Source of the DNA: Thermogutta terrifontis
GTDB taxonomy: Bacteria > Planctomycetota > Planctomycetia > Pirellulales > Thermoguttaceae
DNA: 64,000 bases
Direction: 5' to 3'
NCBI RefSeq assembly: GCF_002277955.1
Contig: NZ_CP018477.1
Location: forward strand, 2,067,206-2,131,205
The notes beneath the pieces were generated by a model. That model made no database searches and had not been told where the DNA came from. It saw nothing but the letters and a program-made list of their open reading frames with translations. Both the position numbers and the translations under genes were made by a program. Position 1 is the stretch's first letter. The number at the start of each line of letters is the position of its first letter. This document shows, in pieces, positions 37,615 to 44,438 of this stretch.

Positions 37615-40506
37615 TCAGGGAAGAATAGGGAAAAGGTCCGGAAACCGCCCCTCCGCATCATCCTCCGGCGGCCAAAAGATTCCCTGCCGAATCTTCCGAA
37701 TAACCTCCGCCGCCGTGGCGTCGGCCTCAGCTAACTCTTCCTCGCTCCACTCCGCCTCGTACAGGCCGGTTTGCTGGACGTCCTTAGGAAGAACGATGTA
37801 GCCCAACTTGAGTGGTGCGTGTGTGGTTACCGATTGAGCGAGATGACGGTAAAGCGGCAACTGAAGATCAACCCATTTGAGAACACCTTCTTCGCGCCGG
37901 CGGTGAGTCTTTTCTGGCGGCATTGGGTCTTCACTCACTTTGTAGTCGATAATCAGGAATTCCGAGCCATCCCGCCGTCGGTCAATGCGATCGATTCGGC
38001 CGACAAGTGTGATGGGTTCACCATCAACGGTGAATGTAACCTCTTTGCTGGGGGTGTACTCGGAGTGAAGGATTTGCCATTCCTGCGCATGGAAGGCCTG
38101 AAAATTCGCGAAGGCCCGGAGTCGCTCGCGGAGTTGCTCAAGCTGAAGTGGTACGGACGGCCGCGGGGTGTGTGCCAGGGTTTTCTCAACCGTGCGATCC
38201 AATGCCCGTATGAGAAACTCAGCGATTTCATCGGCGGCGGTGCTATCCCGATGTTGAGATCGGGCGAATTGACAAAGCACCCGGTGTGCCAGATTTCCGA
38301 AGCTGAGCGGGTCCAATTCTTCCACGTCGTCGGAAATCGTCCCCAATTGAAGCACGTGGCGTAGATAAAATCGGTACGGGCAGGCAAGATAATCACGGAA
38401 CTGAGTGACGCGGATTTCCGAAAAGGGCACGATGACGGTCGGTGCGGGGGGAGCGAGTGCCTCGCCACTTGGGGAATACTTGCACCATCGCGGGGGCCGA
38501 CGTGGCGGTCCTTCGACACCCCCGAAAAAGGCCGTCACCCGTCTCACCATGCTGCCATCGTCGCAGGAAAAAAGAAATCGGCTGGGGAAAAGGGGGTTTC
38601 CCTCTGTGTCCTGCCGCCCGACGACGAGATGGAACTCCTCCCGACTGAAAGTGATCAGACTCAGCAAATAGGCATCCCGCGCGATACGCCGAGCGCTTCC
38701 CTCCAGTTGCAGCCACTCTCTCAATTCGGCCGTCAGGAACATTTCATTGCGCGTGATTGAAGGCACAAAACCCTCGTTGACGCTCGTCAAAACGGTTACC
38801 GGTGCATCATCCCAAGGGATGTCAAGCCATCCCATAATCTCCACGGACGGCCCTTTCAGGGGAGCAGGGACACGACTGTTGGCCAAATGATACCGAACCC
38901 ACCGCAGTAACTCCCCAGGCGTTGTTTGCCATCCCAAGAAACTTTGCACTCGCTGGGGTACCTGCATCCATTCCCCAAGAGTCTCCACAATGGCGCGACA
39001 GACTTGAATAGTCTCTTCCTTTACATCGGAGTCGTTTCCGGATGGCTGGCATGAGGCATCCAGCACTGGCCCATAGAATTCGAGCAGAATGTCGCGGAGT
39101 CGTTCCGCGCATGCTGAGATCGGCTGAGCACGAGTCCAGGTTTGGGGCGAGAAACGTTGCCAGAGACTCAGCCACGCCTCTGTGACGGCGTTTTTCTCAC
39201 CCTGCATGTCGCACTCGTCCATAAGAAGCGGGAGTCGTTCAGCACACCAGGTGTCGAACTCTGTGAGCAGATCAACGTTTCCGCCAGCGCGTCGAGCCAG
39301 CCACTGTTCCGCCACAGGGTGCCGGAGGAGCGAACCAAATGCTTCGACAGTTTTTTGCTCCAAAAAATCACCCAGTGCCTCGAAAAGTCCCCACACCGAA
39401 GTACGAATGACAGGCCGTCCCGGACCGTACCGGGCAGGCAATCCGTGGTGCTCGAGGGCATCCAGAATCAGGGGGACAAGCGACTCGTCAGGCGCCCCCA
39501 CCGTGATATCTTCGATGCCGTATCGCTCATCCAAACGTGAAAGAAACCGGACGACGGCATACGCCTGATCTGACGGCTGCTGGCAAAGCGCGATTCGATC
39601 ATCGGGGATGGGCTGCGGCAACTCCTGCCAGCATTCCGGGATCAAACAGCCAAGCTCGTCAAAGCGATCGGCGAACTGCCGCGGAGCCACGGTCAGAACC
39701 TTGATTTGGTCGCGGACCTGAGCCAAAAGCTGGCGGACAATCGGCGGAAGGTCCACAAGCCCGACAAGGAGTGTCTCCCGGTCCAAGCTGCATGCATTAC
39801 GGGAACGCGCTTCAAAACGGGCGGCCACCACATCGCAAAGGCCTTCCCGGTCGAGAGTTTCCAGATACAGCCGTTCCAAGAGGTCGAGCGTCTCCCATCT
39901 GCCACGGTCAGGGAATTCTGGATCACGTTGAAGCGCGATCTGGAGGACGTCATGAAATGAGAATCCTCCACTACTTACTTCGTACCTCAACTGAGCGAGG
40001 CATTGAGCCAGGGACAACCACCGCTGGCTCTCCGTGGAGGTTGTCCAGTGGGGGAAAAGCCGTCGCAGGGCCGATTCATCTCGATATGCCAGCTCCTGCA
40101 GTGCGATGCACCATGCCAGAAGGCAGGTGGGCTCGCTAGCCGGTGGCTTTTCCGGCGAATAAAGGCGTTCAGGAAGCTGCCCCACTGTCATGACATCCGG
40201 TGGAAGCAAAATCACGCTGTGAGTTTGGGCTTTTTCCGCCAATTGGGCTAAAAGGCGTCGAACGGCCCAACCGGTCGGCAATACGATAGCGAGTCGAGAA
40301 AGGTCCCAGAGCTTCCCACCGGCGTTAGGCGGGTTGTTCTGGCATATGTAATCCAAGACGAGTTGAACAACTGGCCGCGACCAACCCAAAAAGATATGCT
40401 GAAAATCGCGGGATTTGCCGGCTGCTCGAAGCTGGGGCGTCAAATCACCCTGTGGCACTTCCGTTTTGACCGACTTGGAATCTCGACGTGGTCCCTTACT
40501 CACCAT
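37615..40506 (-). CDS. AddB-like PD-(D/E)XK nuclease
   Basis: A 963-residue protein resembling the AddB/RexB subunit of recombinational repair nucleases. The N-terminal half is a degenerate helicase-like region (LAIVLPTGWAVRRLLAQL). Residues about 710-963 form the RecB-type nuclease: ACPYRFYLRHVL, GNLAHRVLCQF, the metal Asp in GRIDRIDRRRDG and the catalytic IDYKVSE. Only one Cys of the classic AddB iron-sulfur set is obvious. The ATG at 40506 has GGTGGGG upstream and overlaps the stop of the MetF-MetV gene by 11 bases, so the two are translationally coupled despite unrelated roles. No addA partner is in view. It could alternatively be a stand-alone nuclease. Confidence 0.8.
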   Translation of the reverse strand: MVSKGPRRDSKSVKTEVPQGDLTPQLRAAGKSRDFQHIFLGWSRPVVQLVLDYICQNNPPNAGGKLWDLSRLAIVLPTGWAVRRLLAQLAEKAQTHSVILLPPDVMTVGQLPERLYSPEKPPASEPTCLLAWCIALQELAYRDESALRRLFPHWTTSTESQRWLSLAQCLAQLRYEVSSGGFSFHDVLQIALQRDPEFPDRGRWETLDLLERLYLETLDREGLCDVVAARFEARSRNACSLDRETLLVGLVDLPPIVRQLLAQVRDQIKVLTVAPRQFADRFDELGCLIPECWQELPQPIPDDRIALCQQPSDQAYAVVRFLSRLDERYGIEDITVGAPDESLVPLILDALEHHGLPARYGPGRPVIRTSVWGLFEALGDFLEQKTVEAFGSLLRHPVAEQWLARRAGGNVDLLTEFDTWCAERLPLLMDECDMQGEKNAVTEAWLSLWQRFSPQTWTRAQPISACAERLRDILLEFYGPVLDASCQPSGNDSDVKEETIQVCRAIVETLGEWMQVPQRVQSFLGWQTTPGELLRWVRYHLANSRVPAPLKGPSVEIMGWLDIPWDDAPVTVLTSVNEGFVPSITRNEMFLTAELREWLQLEGSARRIARDAYLLSLITFSREEFHLVVGRQDTEGNPLFPSRFLFSCDDGSMVRRVTAFFGGVEGPPRRPPRWCKYSPSGEALAPPAPTVIVPFSEIRVTQFRDYLACPYRFYLRHVLQLGTISDDVEELDPLSFGNLAHRVLCQFARSQHRDSTAADEIAEFLIRALDRTVEKTLAHTPRPSVPLQLEQLRERLRAFANFQAFHAQEWQILHSEYTPSKEVTFTVDGEPITLVGRIDRIDRRRDGSEFLIIDYKVSEDPMPPEKTHRRREEGVLKWVDLQLPLYRHLAQSVTTHAPLKLGYIVLPKDVQQTGLYEAEWSEEELAEADATAAEVIRKIRQGIFWPPEDDAEGRFPDLFPILP

Positions 40507-42133
40507 GCGTATTTGCCCCACCTGAGGTATCTTGACCGAGATCCCTCTTCTCAGTGACTCCGTGATGATCGCGATTGAGGTAGGTATTTGCCCAGGAAGA
40601 AGTATGGGCCAATTCTGCATTGTACAAAACGGGTGGTCCGCTGAGCATCTCTTCGGATTCCCCGTACGCTTTCAATCGTTCGTAGACAATAGCCCACAGG
40701 CACTCCTTGTTGCGAAGCTCACACTCGCCATCCACGGAGCCTCCGCATGGTCCATTCCGGCTGCACTTGGAGCACCAGCGTTTGGGACAAATATAGGCAC
40801 AGTCCGGCAAACTGCAGTCTCCGCAGTCCTGACAACCGTACATCACGTATTTGGAGAATTTTTCCAGACCATATAAAACACGAGCCGGAGCAGGCGGCCG
40901 CGGTTTACCGGCCCAGCGTTGGTAGAGCCTCTGCGCAAGATTCCACAGGCCCTTCCCTCTTGTAAAGGCCAGTCGATGTACCAAGCGGGAAAGGCGGTAT
41001 CCTAGCGTGACGTACCGGGAACGCCTCGGTTTTCTCAACGATTCAAGGTATTGCCGATTGATTTTCTCAGGTCCACTCAACCCCGTCTCGGGCTCGTGCT
41101 CAAAGAAGAAAAACTCGTCGGGAAACGAGAATTGGATTTCTTTTAAAAATTGACGCCAATCATCGGGGGCGAAAGAGTCCAGATGTCGGAGGACCTCCTC
41201 TAAGGACTCCAGCTTGTGGATTCCTCCCAAGTAGCCTGCGGCGAAGCCCAGCCCTCGCAGCACGGCCAGTTGTTTGGCAGCCAGTTCGGCGAAAAATTTC
41301 TTTCCGCGATCGGGACCGGCGGCGTATTTTTGGCAGAGTTCCCACAGTTCATCTGTGACGACGCATCCGGGGAGTTGGCGGTCGTGGAAAAGTTTGGCAA
41401 CGGTTTTGGTGAGAAGATACACGTTACCAATGGCCGGAATACCCGAAATACCTCTTGCTTGGAGGAAAAGTTTCACCTCGTGGTATTTCCGCATATCGTA
41501 GCCGAGCTGGGTGATCACCCACTCCGCCCCGGTGGCGATTTTACGCACAAGCTTGAAGTATTGTGGGACAAGTTCGCGTTCGTAACGTTTAAAGGGAGAA
41601 ACGGCACAACCTATGTAAAATCGCGTGGGCGGAAGGGTCTCACGTTTTCCTGGGCGAGTTGTGACACTCAGCCCCTCGTTCATGGCCTTAAGCAGCGCGA
41701 TCAAACCAACCGAGTCAAGATCAAACACCCCTTGAGGTTTGCCACCGAAACCCGCTGTGGGATAATCGCCCGTCAGGGCCAGCACGTTGTGGAGTCCTTC
41801 TGCCGCCAGCCGCCACGCGAGGCTTTCCAACCCGGCTCGGTTGGTGTCCTTGCACGTCATGTGAATGACGATCCGATCCCGCTCGTTGAACAGAAATTGG
41901 GCTATCCAATCTGCCGGTAACATGGGGTTACCGCCAGGATTATCGGTGATCGAGATCCATCCGATACGAGGATGCGAGAGAAGTTCCCGGGCTAAGATGA
42001 TCGGGGGCGCATCACCGGGATTCGCCGGGAAGCCTCGCGTGGAAACAATCTCCACCCCGATCGGGAATCCACCGCTCTCCAGAAGGCGTCGAAAGCTCAA
42101 CCCGGAGGGCTCAGCGGTCGCCCCACCTGTCAT
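40496..42133 (-). CDS. metF: Fused MetF-MetV methylenetetrahydrofolate reductase
   Basis: A 545-residue reductase that should interconvert 5,10-methylene- and 5-methyl-tetrahydrofolate. The N-terminal ~290 residues are the MetF TIM barrel (FPIGVEIVSTRGFPAN, GWISITDNPGGNPML, HMTCKDTNRAGLES, VLALTGDYPTAG, AEWVITQLGYDMRKYHEVK). The C-terminal ~130 residues are the MetV-like (MTHFR_C) cysteine-rich domain: YGCQDCGDC, PDCAYICPKRWCSKC and NGPCGG from residue 433 on. In acetogens MetV is a separate zinc-binding partner of MetF, so this is a single-chain version. ATG 42133 has GGAG 8 bases before it. A corrinoid protein gene lies 183 bases upstream and an AddB-like gene overlaps its end. Confidence 0.88.
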   Translation of the reverse strand: MTGGATAEPSGLSFRRLLESGGFPIGVEIVSTRGFPANPGDAPPIILARELLSHPRIGWISITDNPGGNPMLPADWIAQFLFNERDRIVIHMTCKDTNRAGLESLAWRLAAEGLHNVLALTGDYPTAGFGGKPQGVFDLDSVGLIALLKAMNEGLSVTTRPGKRETLPPTRFYIGCAVSPFKRYERELVPQYFKLVRKIATGAEWVITQLGYDMRKYHEVKLFLQARGISGIPAIGNVYLLTKTVAKLFHDRQLPGCVVTDELWELCQKYAAGPDRGKKFFAELAAKQLAVLRGLGFAAGYLGGIHKLESLEEVLRHLDSFAPDDWRQFLKEIQFSFPDEFFFFEHEPETGLSGPEKINRQYLESLRKPRRSRYVTLGYRLSRLVHRLAFTRGKGLWNLAQRLYQRWAGKPRPPAPARVLYGLEKFSKYVMYGCQDCGDCSLPDCAYICPKRWCSKCSRNGPCGGSVDGECELRNKECLWAIVYERLKAYGESEEMLSGPPVLYNAELAHTSSWANTYLNRDHHGVTEKRDLGQDTSGGANTHGE

Positions 42134-42316
42134 GGTTCGACTCCAAAGATAAATGGGATTTTGTCGATCGCTGCCCCAAAAGTTCCCGGTGTGTGTTCGC
42201 TTTTCCGGGAAGCCGGCGGCTGCTTTCCAGTCGTGCTGAACAAAAGCACAGTATTCCCCGCGGAAAGACCTCAAAACCAACCAGCTTGATATGATCGGGT
42301 GCTTGACCAGCGGGTA

Positions 42317-42979
42317 TCAGCCAGTGGTAGCCGCTACGGATCCCAGTTCGGCAGCGAGCCGTCGCGCGACATCAACGGCCTCGGTGGCGTTCTCGCCGTA
42401 GCCGTCGGCGCCGATTTGCTGGGCAAACTGCGGGGTGATGGGGGCTCCGCCGACCATGACGCGGACCTTATCGCGAAGACCACTTTGCTGAAGAGCCTCG
42501 ATCACGTTTTTCATATTGAGCATGGTGGTGGTGAGGAGCGCGGACATCGCCACGATTGTGCCCGGTCTTTCTTGGGCAGCCTGCACGAACTTTTCTGGGG
42601 GCACATCCACCCCCAAATCCACCACTTCAAATCCGGCACCTTCCAGCATGGAGGCGACCAGGTTTTTGCCAATGTCGTGGAGGTCGCCCTTGACTGTCCC
42701 AATCACCACTCGCCCGATGCGTTTAGCACCAGTTTCTGCCAGTTTCGGGGTGATGAGTTCCAGAGCCGCTTTCATTGCCCGAGCGGCAATCAGAAGTTCC
42801 GGAACAAAATACTCATTACAGGCAAACCGCTGCCCTACTTCGTTCATCGCCGGGATCATGTATTTGGAGATCAGCTCCGAGGGATCTACATTAGCCTCCA
42901 AAGCGGCCTTGGTTACCTCCACCGCAGTTCGATGATCTCCGGTCACGATCGCGTCATAGAGTTTAGAGTAATCGCTCAT
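42317..42979 (-). CDS. Corrinoid (B12-binding) methyltransferase protein
   Basis: A 220-residue corrinoid protein of the MtaC/MtbC/MetH-cap type that carries methyl groups on cobalt. Residues 1-85 are the helical cap (B12-binding-2). The Rossmann B12 domain has the base-off ligand motif GDLHDIGKN (Asp99, His101, Gly104), with later MSALLTTTM and VMVGGAPI contacts. A GGAGGGG site 5 bases before fixes ATG 42979; an upstream start adds nine residues. It is followed by MetF-MetV on the same strand, so a methyl-THF/corrinoid exchange is the simplest reading. The partner methyltransferase is not in the window and its substrate is unknown. Confidence 0.9.
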   Translation of the reverse strand: MSDYSKLYDAIVTGDHRTAVEVTKAALEANVDPSELISKYMIPAMNEVGQRFACNEYFVPELLIAARAMKAALELITPKLAETGAKRIGRVVIGTVKGDLHDIGKNLVASMLEGAGFEVVDLGVDVPPEKFVQAAQERPGTIVAMSALLTTTMLNMKNVIEALQQSGLRDKVRVMVGGAPITPQFAQQIGADGYGENATEAVDVARRLAAELGSVAATTG

Positions 42980-43208: not shown

Positions 43209-44270
43209 TCACGCATACCAGGCGCGTTCACGTTGTCCTACCTTGTTGAGAGCTTCGATGGCTAATCGCACGTCCATCTCAATTTGAAAATCGAACATTC
43301 CCACCACGATGAAATCGGCCCCGTTTCGAAAAGCGTAGGCGAAACCCTGCTGCGGATGGATGGCGCCAGCGGCAAGCACCTTGAAGGCCAACCAGGGTTT
43401 TTGCACCGTTTTCATGAAAGCGGCGGTTTCTTCTGGGTTATTGCACCACATGTTGTCGTTATTGGCGTCATGGTCGCTGGGGTTGCCCCGCATCCAGTCA
43501 AACTCCTGCCGTCTTTCCTTCGGCGTTGCCGACCAGTAACGATCCGAATGGAACGTTTTCATGTAAAAGTCGACGGGAAGTTTTGCCTGTTCGCACGCCT
43601 TGACCACTTCCAGGGAGTGGCAGCCGATCCCCGCTGGGCGGCCCGTTTCGTGGATCAGGTCCAGCATTTGAGCGAGAGCATCGAGACCGCCGCCATTCAT
43701 GAAATGGGAATCCGTCGATCCGCCGTGCGAATAGATACAGGTGGCCCCACGCTCAACCTGCTGCTCGATCACCCTCTTCATTTCAGCCCGGTCTTGGATG
43801 ACGGGCACACACACAATTGTCTGAATGGGAGGATTGCGGTGTCGATTGTACTTGGCGATGACATCCCAGCAAGCTGGGTCAAGTTGGATCGTGTTGATCC
43901 CACAGGCCATGGCAAGGTCCAAAGTTTCGAACACCTTGGGTTCGGTGTTGTACTCGCGGAAGAGGCGAGACACGTAGATGAGGTCTCGACTGTGCGCCCA
44001 CCCACCGATGAGATTTCCACCGATAATCAGGCGACTGATTGTGACGTTCCCAATTTTTCCGGTTGGCAAAGGTCCCGGCAGAGGTTCCGAGGGTCGCCGT
44101 GTCGCCGGTGGAACGCTCTCCGTTTGCGAGGCGGGTTGTGCCTTTCCTTCTGCTACGGCGGCACGAAGGATTTCTTCCTCGATACTTGTGTACGCCAGCC
44201 CCAAACCCGCCGCGCCTGCTAATCCATGGGCAAGAAAACACCGCCGATCTGTCTTGCGGACGTCGTTCAT
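43209..44270 (-). CDS. Tat-exported TIM-barrel (aldo/keto-reductase-like) protein
   Basis: A 353-residue exported protein. The N-terminus DRRCFLAHGLAGAAGLGLAY resembles a twin-arginine signal with the pair as RR in DRRCF. After a Pro-rich linker a TIM barrel starts at ISRLIIGGNLIGGWAHS, and IGCHSLEVVKACEQAKLPVDFYMKTFHSDRYW and FKVLAAGAIHPQQGF complete a fold like that of aldo/keto reductases. The catalytic Tyr/Lys pair of the classic family is not obvious. GGGAGG 7 bases before supports ATG 44270 over an upstream TTG. It lies 230 bases ahead of the corrinoid gene on the same strand; whether it takes part in methyl metabolism is unknown. Confidence 0.72.
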   Translation of the reverse strand: MNDVRKTDRRCFLAHGLAGAAGLGLAYTSIEEEILRAAVAEGKAQPASQTESVPPATRRPSEPLPGPLPTGKIGNVTISRLIIGGNLIGGWAHSRDLIYVSRLFREYNTEPKVFETLDLAMACGINTIQLDPACWDVIAKYNRHRNPPIQTIVCVPVIQDRAEMKRVIEQQVERGATCIYSHGGSTDSHFMNGGGLDALAQMLDLIHETGRPAGIGCHSLEVVKACEQAKLPVDFYMKTFHSDRYWSATPKERRQEFDWMRGNPSDHDANNDNMWCNNPEETAAFMKTVQKPWLAFKVLAAGAIHPQQGFAYAFRNGADFIVVGMFDFQIEMDVRLAIEALNKVGQRERAWYA

Positions 44271-44438
44271 GATCAAGCCTCCCGGTCAATTGGAACCCGT
44301 TCAGACAACAACATTTTTTGCTCATCTCAGCAGCCAGCCGCAGTGGGCGCAAAAACTCACTCACTGTGGCCGCGCCTCATCCGCTACTCATTGTGTTCTA
44401 CCGAAGGGCCGTCGATCAATCAGCGCGTTGCCCGTTCC

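Follow-up and report, generated by a model that had tools for sequence, protein, structure and literature searches.

Ruegeria pomeroyi uses a single corrinoid protein and a single pterin methyltransferase for demethylation as well as for making methionine, in a set made up of MtgB/C/D/E and MetF2 (PMC12478193; here and below, statements on papers cited by PMC number refer to excerpts of those papers). In Phaeobacter inhibens, methionine synthase is split into separate HCY, pterin-binding and corrinoid chains, accompanied by a RamA-like activase and DUF1638, and the genes are not all at one locus (PMC5764234). Type 1 mlp clusters combine an MtaA-like protein having a His-Cys-Cys site with a corrinoid protein and an activase (PMC10418091). 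In acetogens, the MetFV type of methylenetetrahydrofolate reductase (MTHFR) has two subunits, and metV precedes metF (PMC8515935; PMC9430772), and NGPCGG together with two [4Fe4S] sites are hallmarks of MetV (PMC8515935). Here we describe a gene pair of Thermogutta terrifontis that encodes a corrinoid protein and a MetF and MetV joined in a single chain. The pair lies in a 64-kb stretch of DNA, called the window throughout, which occupies positions 2067206-2131205 of a genome assembled as one contig of 4,810,751 bases; the chromosome of T. terrifontis R1 is described as single, circular and 4,810,751 bp long (PMC5673643). The window pair is probably half of a B12-dependent methyl-transfer set whose other half lies at 3.94 Mb. 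The whole reading, namely, that an operon was broken in the Thermogutta lineage and that the module is a corrinoid methyl-transfer relay, we consider fairly likely.

The corrinoid-protein gene is 5' of the MetF-MetV gene and both are on the minus strand. In window positions, the features are:

42317-42979, minus strand: corrinoid (B12) carrier protein, MtgC/MtbC-like, 220 residues (PF02607 and PF02310, TIGR02370)
42668-42685, minus strand: DLHDIG cobalamin lower-ligand motif, followed by S-x-L and GG (pattern D.H..G / S.L / GG)
40496-42133, minus strand: single-chain MetF-MetV methylenetetrahydrofolate reductase, 545 residues (PF02219 and PF12225; open frame from 42280)
41258-41959, minus strand: MetF (MTHFR TIM-barrel) domain, the PF02219 match
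40646-40879, minus strand: MetV-type cysteine-rich domain with RNGPCGG and eight invariant cysteines (PF12225/DUF5981)

The corrinoid gene runs from an ATG at 42979 to a stop at 42317, and a Shine-Dalgarno-like GGAGGGG ends three bases 5' of the ATG. Its product has both B12-binding_2 and B12-binding above the Pfam cut-offs and passes TIGR02370 (219.7 bits, cut-off 215.3). It scores below the MtgC cut-offs of NCBIfam (221 against 370 and 200 against 310) and below the MtbC models as well. The nearest solved structure by sequence is 1y80 (E 1.5e-61). The full signature, from the lower-ligand motif to GG, is complete in the window protein; of 40 homologs encoded near fusions, 39 have it too. Coordinates, Pfam, TIGR02370 and the signature agree with the first-pass annotation, which had placed a corrinoid protein with an intact DLHDIG motif directly upstream of the reductase.

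The reductase combines an MTHFR match (PF02219, 55.6 bits, cut-off 24) with a PF12225 match (76.5 bits, cut-off 23) in one frame. The alignment of relatives, together with a GGAG seven bases before it, suggests the ATG at 42133 as the start. Relatives were searched for in 392 genomes of the phylum and in GTDB contigs; the contig scan found at least 462 stretches encoding a relative of the fusion, of which the best 80 were kept, and fusion status was checked for the aligned ones. The MetF residues E28, D123 and Q209, numbered from ATG 42133, are kept in 77/77, 78/78 and 78/78 of the relatives having the position; we take them to be the counterparts of the active-site Glu, Asp and Gln (E28, D120 and Q183) of E. 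coli MTHFR. Eight MetV-type cysteines are invariant in all 78 aligned relatives (L134 was left out of the motif alignment), and in every one of the 78 these residues and cysteines stand in one open frame. The remaining two of the best 80, which are contigs of genomes G353 and G277, are single frames as well. Since all 78 aligned relatives carry both parts in one frame, the fusion is not a sequencing accident. The earlier claim that MetF and MetV form one polypeptide, unlike in acetogens, is thereby confirmed, and the fusion is not rare, with at least 462 stretches found and all 78 aligned relatives fused.

In the structure model of the fusion (pLDDT 78.4, pTM 0.83), the barrel has a Thermus MTHFR as its best structural match (E 1.1e-11), and part of the cysteine-rich region is under pLDDT 50. 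The protein thus shares with the acetogen enzyme the MetF barrel with its conserved residues, the NGPCGG and the cysteine-rich MetV domain. It differs in being one chain, with MetF first, and in its surroundings: no Hdr, RnfC or Nuo was found among the immediate neighbours scanned with Pfam in the window. To judge from the Pfam description of PF12225, "MTHFR C terminal", its authors were already aware of fused forms. In the phylum search, full-length matches to the fusion came from 13 genomes, T. terrifontis included. The fusion is patchy within the order, with no match in the ten same-order genomes listed. A 1202-residue frame of G235 was not taken for a further fusion, its extra N-terminal part looking by eye like GC-rich read-through.

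The earlier view of the pair as a methyl-transfer module is upheld, and partner families for methyl transfer are present elsewhere in the same genome. The main group is a cluster at 3.94 Mb, 1,831,016 bases from the window pair one way round. It encodes on one strand, with gaps of 54-431 bases, a pterin-binding MeTr, an HCY protein, a URO-D protein (UROD_a), DUF1638, a second URO-D protein (UROD_b) and an Fe-alcohol dehydrogenase. All of its proteins (among them PF00809 for MeTr, PF02574 for HCY and PF07796 for DUF1638) score above the Pfam cut-offs, as does RACo, the only activase of this kind in the genome, at 1.37 Mb (PF14574). The MeTr, at 3941326-3942009, is the stand-alone member of three pterin-binding proteins, the others being at 249.8 kb and inside metH. 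Its nearest solved structure by sequence is 4o0q, which, like 4jgi, we take to be part of an O-demethylase of the Desulfitobacterium type. B12-binding_2 occurs at four places in the genome (metH, the window, 840.9 kb and 4.33 Mb), and there are nine URO-D proteins. Hence the earlier statement that no methyltransferase or activator is in view stands for the families searched in the 64-kb window and fails for the genome, where MeTr, HCY, two URO-D proteins and RACo are candidates.

A second URO-D and corrinoid pair, whose corrinoid motif is DVHDIG, lies at about 838.9-841.5 kb (L020:6872-9534). The own-genome searches gave no MeTr or RACo match near it.

The link between the window pair and the distant cluster comes from relatives. 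L075 is a locus of a metagenome-assembled genome (MAG) that bears the name Blastopirellula marina. Its genes run corrinoid protein, fusion, MeTr, HCY, UROD_a, DUF1638, UROD_b and Fe-alcohol dehydrogenase, and the identities to the T. terrifontis proteins are, in that order, 81, 65, 74, 70, 76, 64, 73 and 57%. Because L075 joins both halves in one eight-gene run, the window pair has probably split off from what was once a longer operon. Other arrangements are seen too. One Thermogutta MAG has the fusion and UROD_b on L074, and MeTr, HCY, UROD_a and DUF1638 on L154. In another MAG, corrinoid protein, MeTr, HCY, UROD_a and DUF1638 are on L157 and the fusion is followed by Fhs on L091. In many relatives, L062 and L077 among them, MeTr is followed by Fhs (formate-tetrahydrofolate-ligase-like, named by eye).

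The association of the fusion with MeTr is seen in several forms. In G353, G277 and G235, the gene after the fusion is a MeTr, 66, 56 and 55% identical to the MeTr at 3.94 Mb. In G157, G209, G142, G261, G388 and G127 (L068-L073), MetF, MetV and a MeTr-like part (28-30% identical) make up one chain of about 820 residues. Neither this chain nor the single-chain MetF-MetV is among the MTHFR groups in the excerpts of PMC8515935. Neighbours were counted in 79 loci, with L088 out (same contig as G353) and L134 in (same contig as G277). Of the 74 loci with room, 54 have MeTr as the gene just after the fusion; somewhere in the fetched stretch, MeTr is found in 60/79 and RACo in 23/79. Genome-wide, RACo is found in 61 of the 63 fusion-bearing genomes, the exceptions being G405 and G406, and in 1 of 14 controls.

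The relay that we propose would begin with RACo, helped by DUF1638, holding the corrinoid protein as Co(I). A URO-D methyltransferase would then methylate the corrinoid protein at the expense of an S-, Se- or O-methyl donor, MeTr would hand the methyl group on to tetrahydrofolate, and MetF-MetV would oxidise the resulting methyl-tetrahydrofolate to methylene-tetrahydrofolate, feeding one-carbon metabolism. Alternatively, HCY could draw the methyl group from the corrinoid protein for making methionine, and MeTr could run in reverse. Gene families, motifs, the eight-gene run, adjacency or fusion of MeTr, presence of RACo and absence of an acetyl-CoA synthase are the observations on which the relay is built. 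From them we infer an ancestral run, the pairing of the proteins in the cell and the roles of DUF1638 and of each URO-D protein.

The candidate donor enzymes are the two URO-D proteins of the cluster. UROD_b is nearest to the MtaA/CmuA/MtbA group, and its His239, Cys241 and Cys319 align with the HxC and C of MtaA 4ay7, which are presumably zinc ligands. UROD_a has His-Asp-His at positions taken as equivalent. According to Kountz and Balskus (PMC10418091), His-Cys-Cys marks the S-methyltransferases of the URO-D superfamily, and a carboxylate or lost ligands mark the O-methyltransferases. On these residues, UROD_b would fit an S or Se substrate, and UROD_a would suggest an oxygen-type one. As a caution, CdmB, a chloromethane enzyme with URO-D as its nearest structure, works without zinc (PMC13222342). 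UROD_a has no match in the PDB by sequence; a model made from its L075 homolog is of moderate quality (pLDDT 66.8) and finds its matches among URO-D and MtaA folds, which does not tell the substrate. Among the neighbours in relatives, an amidohydrolase (PF01979 in the representative) recurs in 14 loci, including L132:10597-11892, mostly of Verrucomicrobia, and could be a clue to the substrate. A 213-residue protein (L146:3613-4254 and 8 further loci) recurs 5' of a URO-D gene in Poribacteria, Acidobacteria and Latescibacteria, and its representative has no Pfam family. Neither recurring neighbour yielded a substrate.

Compared with the described systems, T. terrifontis has counterparts of the P. 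inhibens synthase on separate chains (PF02574, PF00809 and PF02607 with PF02310, all above cut-off), along with PF14574 and PF07796, and they too are spread over more than one locus. We take PF14574 to be the DUF4445 of the P. inhibens work. It differs in also having a full-length metH, URO-D genes in the cluster and the single-chain MetF-MetV (compared with PMC5764234). With the R. pomeroyi system it shares the corrinoid protein, the bidirectional pterin methyltransferase, HCY, RamA, DUF1638 and an extra MTHFR (PMC12478193). Here, however, the genome has no MttB/MtgB (PF06253; a Methanosarcina acetivorans control was positive), URO-D would take its place, and the corrinoid protein is under the MtgC cut-offs. 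A glycine betaine route through MtgB is ruled out by this absence. All four families of the four-component corrinoid demethylases (Desulfitobacterium type, 4jgi/4o0q) are present, by family only: URO-D as putative methyltransferase I, corrinoid protein, pterin-binding protein and the activase RACo; the corrinoid protein and MeTr also resemble that type in sequence. Unlike in those systems, HCY and MetF-MetV are included and the genes are dispersed. Type 1 mlp clusters share the MtaA-like protein with the His-Cys-Cys site (H239, C241 and C319 in UROD_b), the corrinoid protein and the activase. Such a cluster has at least an Mlp2 and an Mlp3 alongside corrinoid protein and activase; here one MtaA-like protein stands beside MeTr, the corrinoid protein and RACo are at other loci, and MeTr, HCY and MetF-MetV are not listed as core there in the excerpts (PMC10418091). 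Such clusters belong to obligate anaerobes (PMC10418091), while T. terrifontis also grows aerobically, xanthan gum supporting its growth in either condition (PMC5673643).

Several results weigh against the broken-operon relay. Only 22 of the 73 loci with room have the corrinoid gene just upstream of the fusion, and 40/79 have it somewhere in the stretch. MeTr at E<=1e-20 is found in 43 of 57 fusion genomes; the 14 misses are G076, G110 and G141, which have none near the fusion either, and 11 genomes of Poribacteria, Latescibacteria and Acidobacteria, in which MeTr-like neighbours are 26-32% identical, with none in the stretch of L127. The RACo comparison covers the 63 fusion-bearing genomes and the 14 controls only. 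The contigs L074 and L154 measure about 5 kb each, and nearly all scanned relatives are titled MAG. Among neighbours in other genomes, 15 of 26 UROD_b-like proteins have His-Cys-Cys and 7 of 10 UROD_a-like proteins have His-Asp-His; the donor enzymes therefore vary. Against function-named NCBIfam models, MeTr (108 against 259, PRK07535), RACo (422 against 800), HCY (288 against 453 and 228 against 338) and UROD_b (183.5 against 235.4 for TIGR01463, and under all other cut-offs) score below cut-off, as does UROD_a, and because of these scores the exact functions of MeTr, HCY, RACo and the URO-D proteins are putative. Finally, the position of HCY directly after MeTr equally fits a methionine role.

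That role could be the main one: MetF-MetV would make methyl-tetrahydrofolate, MeTr would load the corrinoid protein, HCY would make methionine, RACo and DUF1638 would reactivate, and the URO-D genes would be incidental. We regard this as possible, if doubtful. It draws strength from the adjoining MeTr and HCY, from counterparts here of all five P. inhibens components (HCY, pterin-binding, corrinoid, RamA-like and DUF1638; PMC5764234), and from the lack of the MetH activation domain PF02965 in 22 of 54 fusion-bearing genomes (32 have it), including G353, of the same family and 99% complete. However, metH of T. terrifontis is full-length (1245 residues, 2015 bits, cut-off 1497), URO-D genes lie within the run in L022 and L075, and there is no riboswitch in the window at Rfam gathering scores, which gave nothing in 9 relatives and just one tRNA in 9 further loci (5 of them its own). 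Nor does HCY in the stretch track loss of the activation domain: over 50 genomes, PF02965 is present in 13/18 with HCY and 17/32 without (p 0.24), in a table compiled by hand from the fetched stretches, which were longer for some loci only. With metH complete and HCY not tracking that domain, a stand-in for an absent MetH was rejected, and methionine synthesis was kept as a rival. The first-pass annotation had named as its refutation a full-length metH together with no need for this corrinoid protein. The first half of this holds and weakens the split-MetH explanation offered there; the corrinoid protein is not thereby superfluous, since MeTr, HCY and RACo are there as separate proteins. The genome has two MTHFRs, in the window and at 669 kb, and the latter, a bifunctional HCY-MTHFR (664 bits, cut-off 453), could cover methionine supply, much as R. 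pomeroyi has a metF in addition to metF2 (PMC12478193).

A Wood-Ljungdahl methyl branch, in which MetF-MetV, MeTr and Fhs would feed an acetyl-CoA synthase, is very improbable here. The Fhs-like gene after MeTr in many relatives would suit it, as would CdhC (PF03598) in 9 of 63 fusion genomes, but CdhC is absent from the other 54, that of T. terrifontis included, which refutes this pathway for T. terrifontis unless another enzyme replaces the synthase. The CdhC matches include fusion-bearing planctomycete MAGs, those of L078, L080 and L084 (G396, G398 and G402), two of them titled Thermoguttaceae, so that a genuine Wood-Ljungdahl pathway may exist in some of the relatives. It is also improbable that the pair is a leftover without a joint role, merely supporting MetH or general folate metabolism. 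The pair does stand alone in the window, next to a complete metH and a second MTHFR in the genome, but the motifs are intact in both proteins, MeTr, HCY, DUF1638, URO-D and RACo are retained elsewhere, and the pairing of corrinoid gene and fusion recurs in those 22/73 loci. Full-length metH and the lack of acetyl-CoA synthase thus argue against a purely methionine role and a Wood-Ljungdahl role, respectively. Because metH and the second MTHFR are present, demethylation to folate is ranked first and methionine second; direction and donor we infer.

Two further genes flank the window pair. One, some 230 bases 5' of the corrinoid gene, encodes a 355-residue protein (43209-44276) with a twin-arginine-like N terminus by eye. 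This protein was set aside as a module member, having no Pfam or NCBIfam match and no homolog in 80 fusion loci at 1e-6. Directly downstream of the fusion is an AddB-like PD-(D/E)XK protein in a frame of 1001 residues (37615-40620), for which AddB models are below cut-off and which shares 125 bases with the 3' end of the fusion gene if the first start is taken. Scans for promoters and terminators were at chance level (2 against 1.4, and 4 against 3.7).

Among the papers listed from open-licence literature, a scope that takes in few subscription journals, no title or beginning of an abstract describes this gene set in these phyla. The parts resemble those of demethylation and methionine-making systems, and the arrangement is new. 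Whether a module built on the single-chain MetF-MetV, or in some planctomycetes on the MetF-MetV-MeTr chain, operates across Planctomycetota, Verrucomicrobiota, Poribacteria and others, with URO-D enzymes stripping S-, Se- or O-methyl groups for folate oxidation or methionine in hosts mostly without acetyl-CoA synthase, we consider about evenly balanced. The relatives define the gene set, and would add the single-chain MetF-MetV and the MetF-MetV-MeTr architectures to the MTHFR types excerpted from PMC8515935. The RamA-like protein and DUF1638 in some genomes with complete MetH are a puzzle in PMC5764234; in the present genome, their target could be a second corrinoid protein. For T. terrifontis, an isolated pair becomes part of a testable pathway, in which a polysaccharide-degrading planctomycete of hot springs would draw on methyl groups in a way familiar chiefly from acetogens and methanogens.

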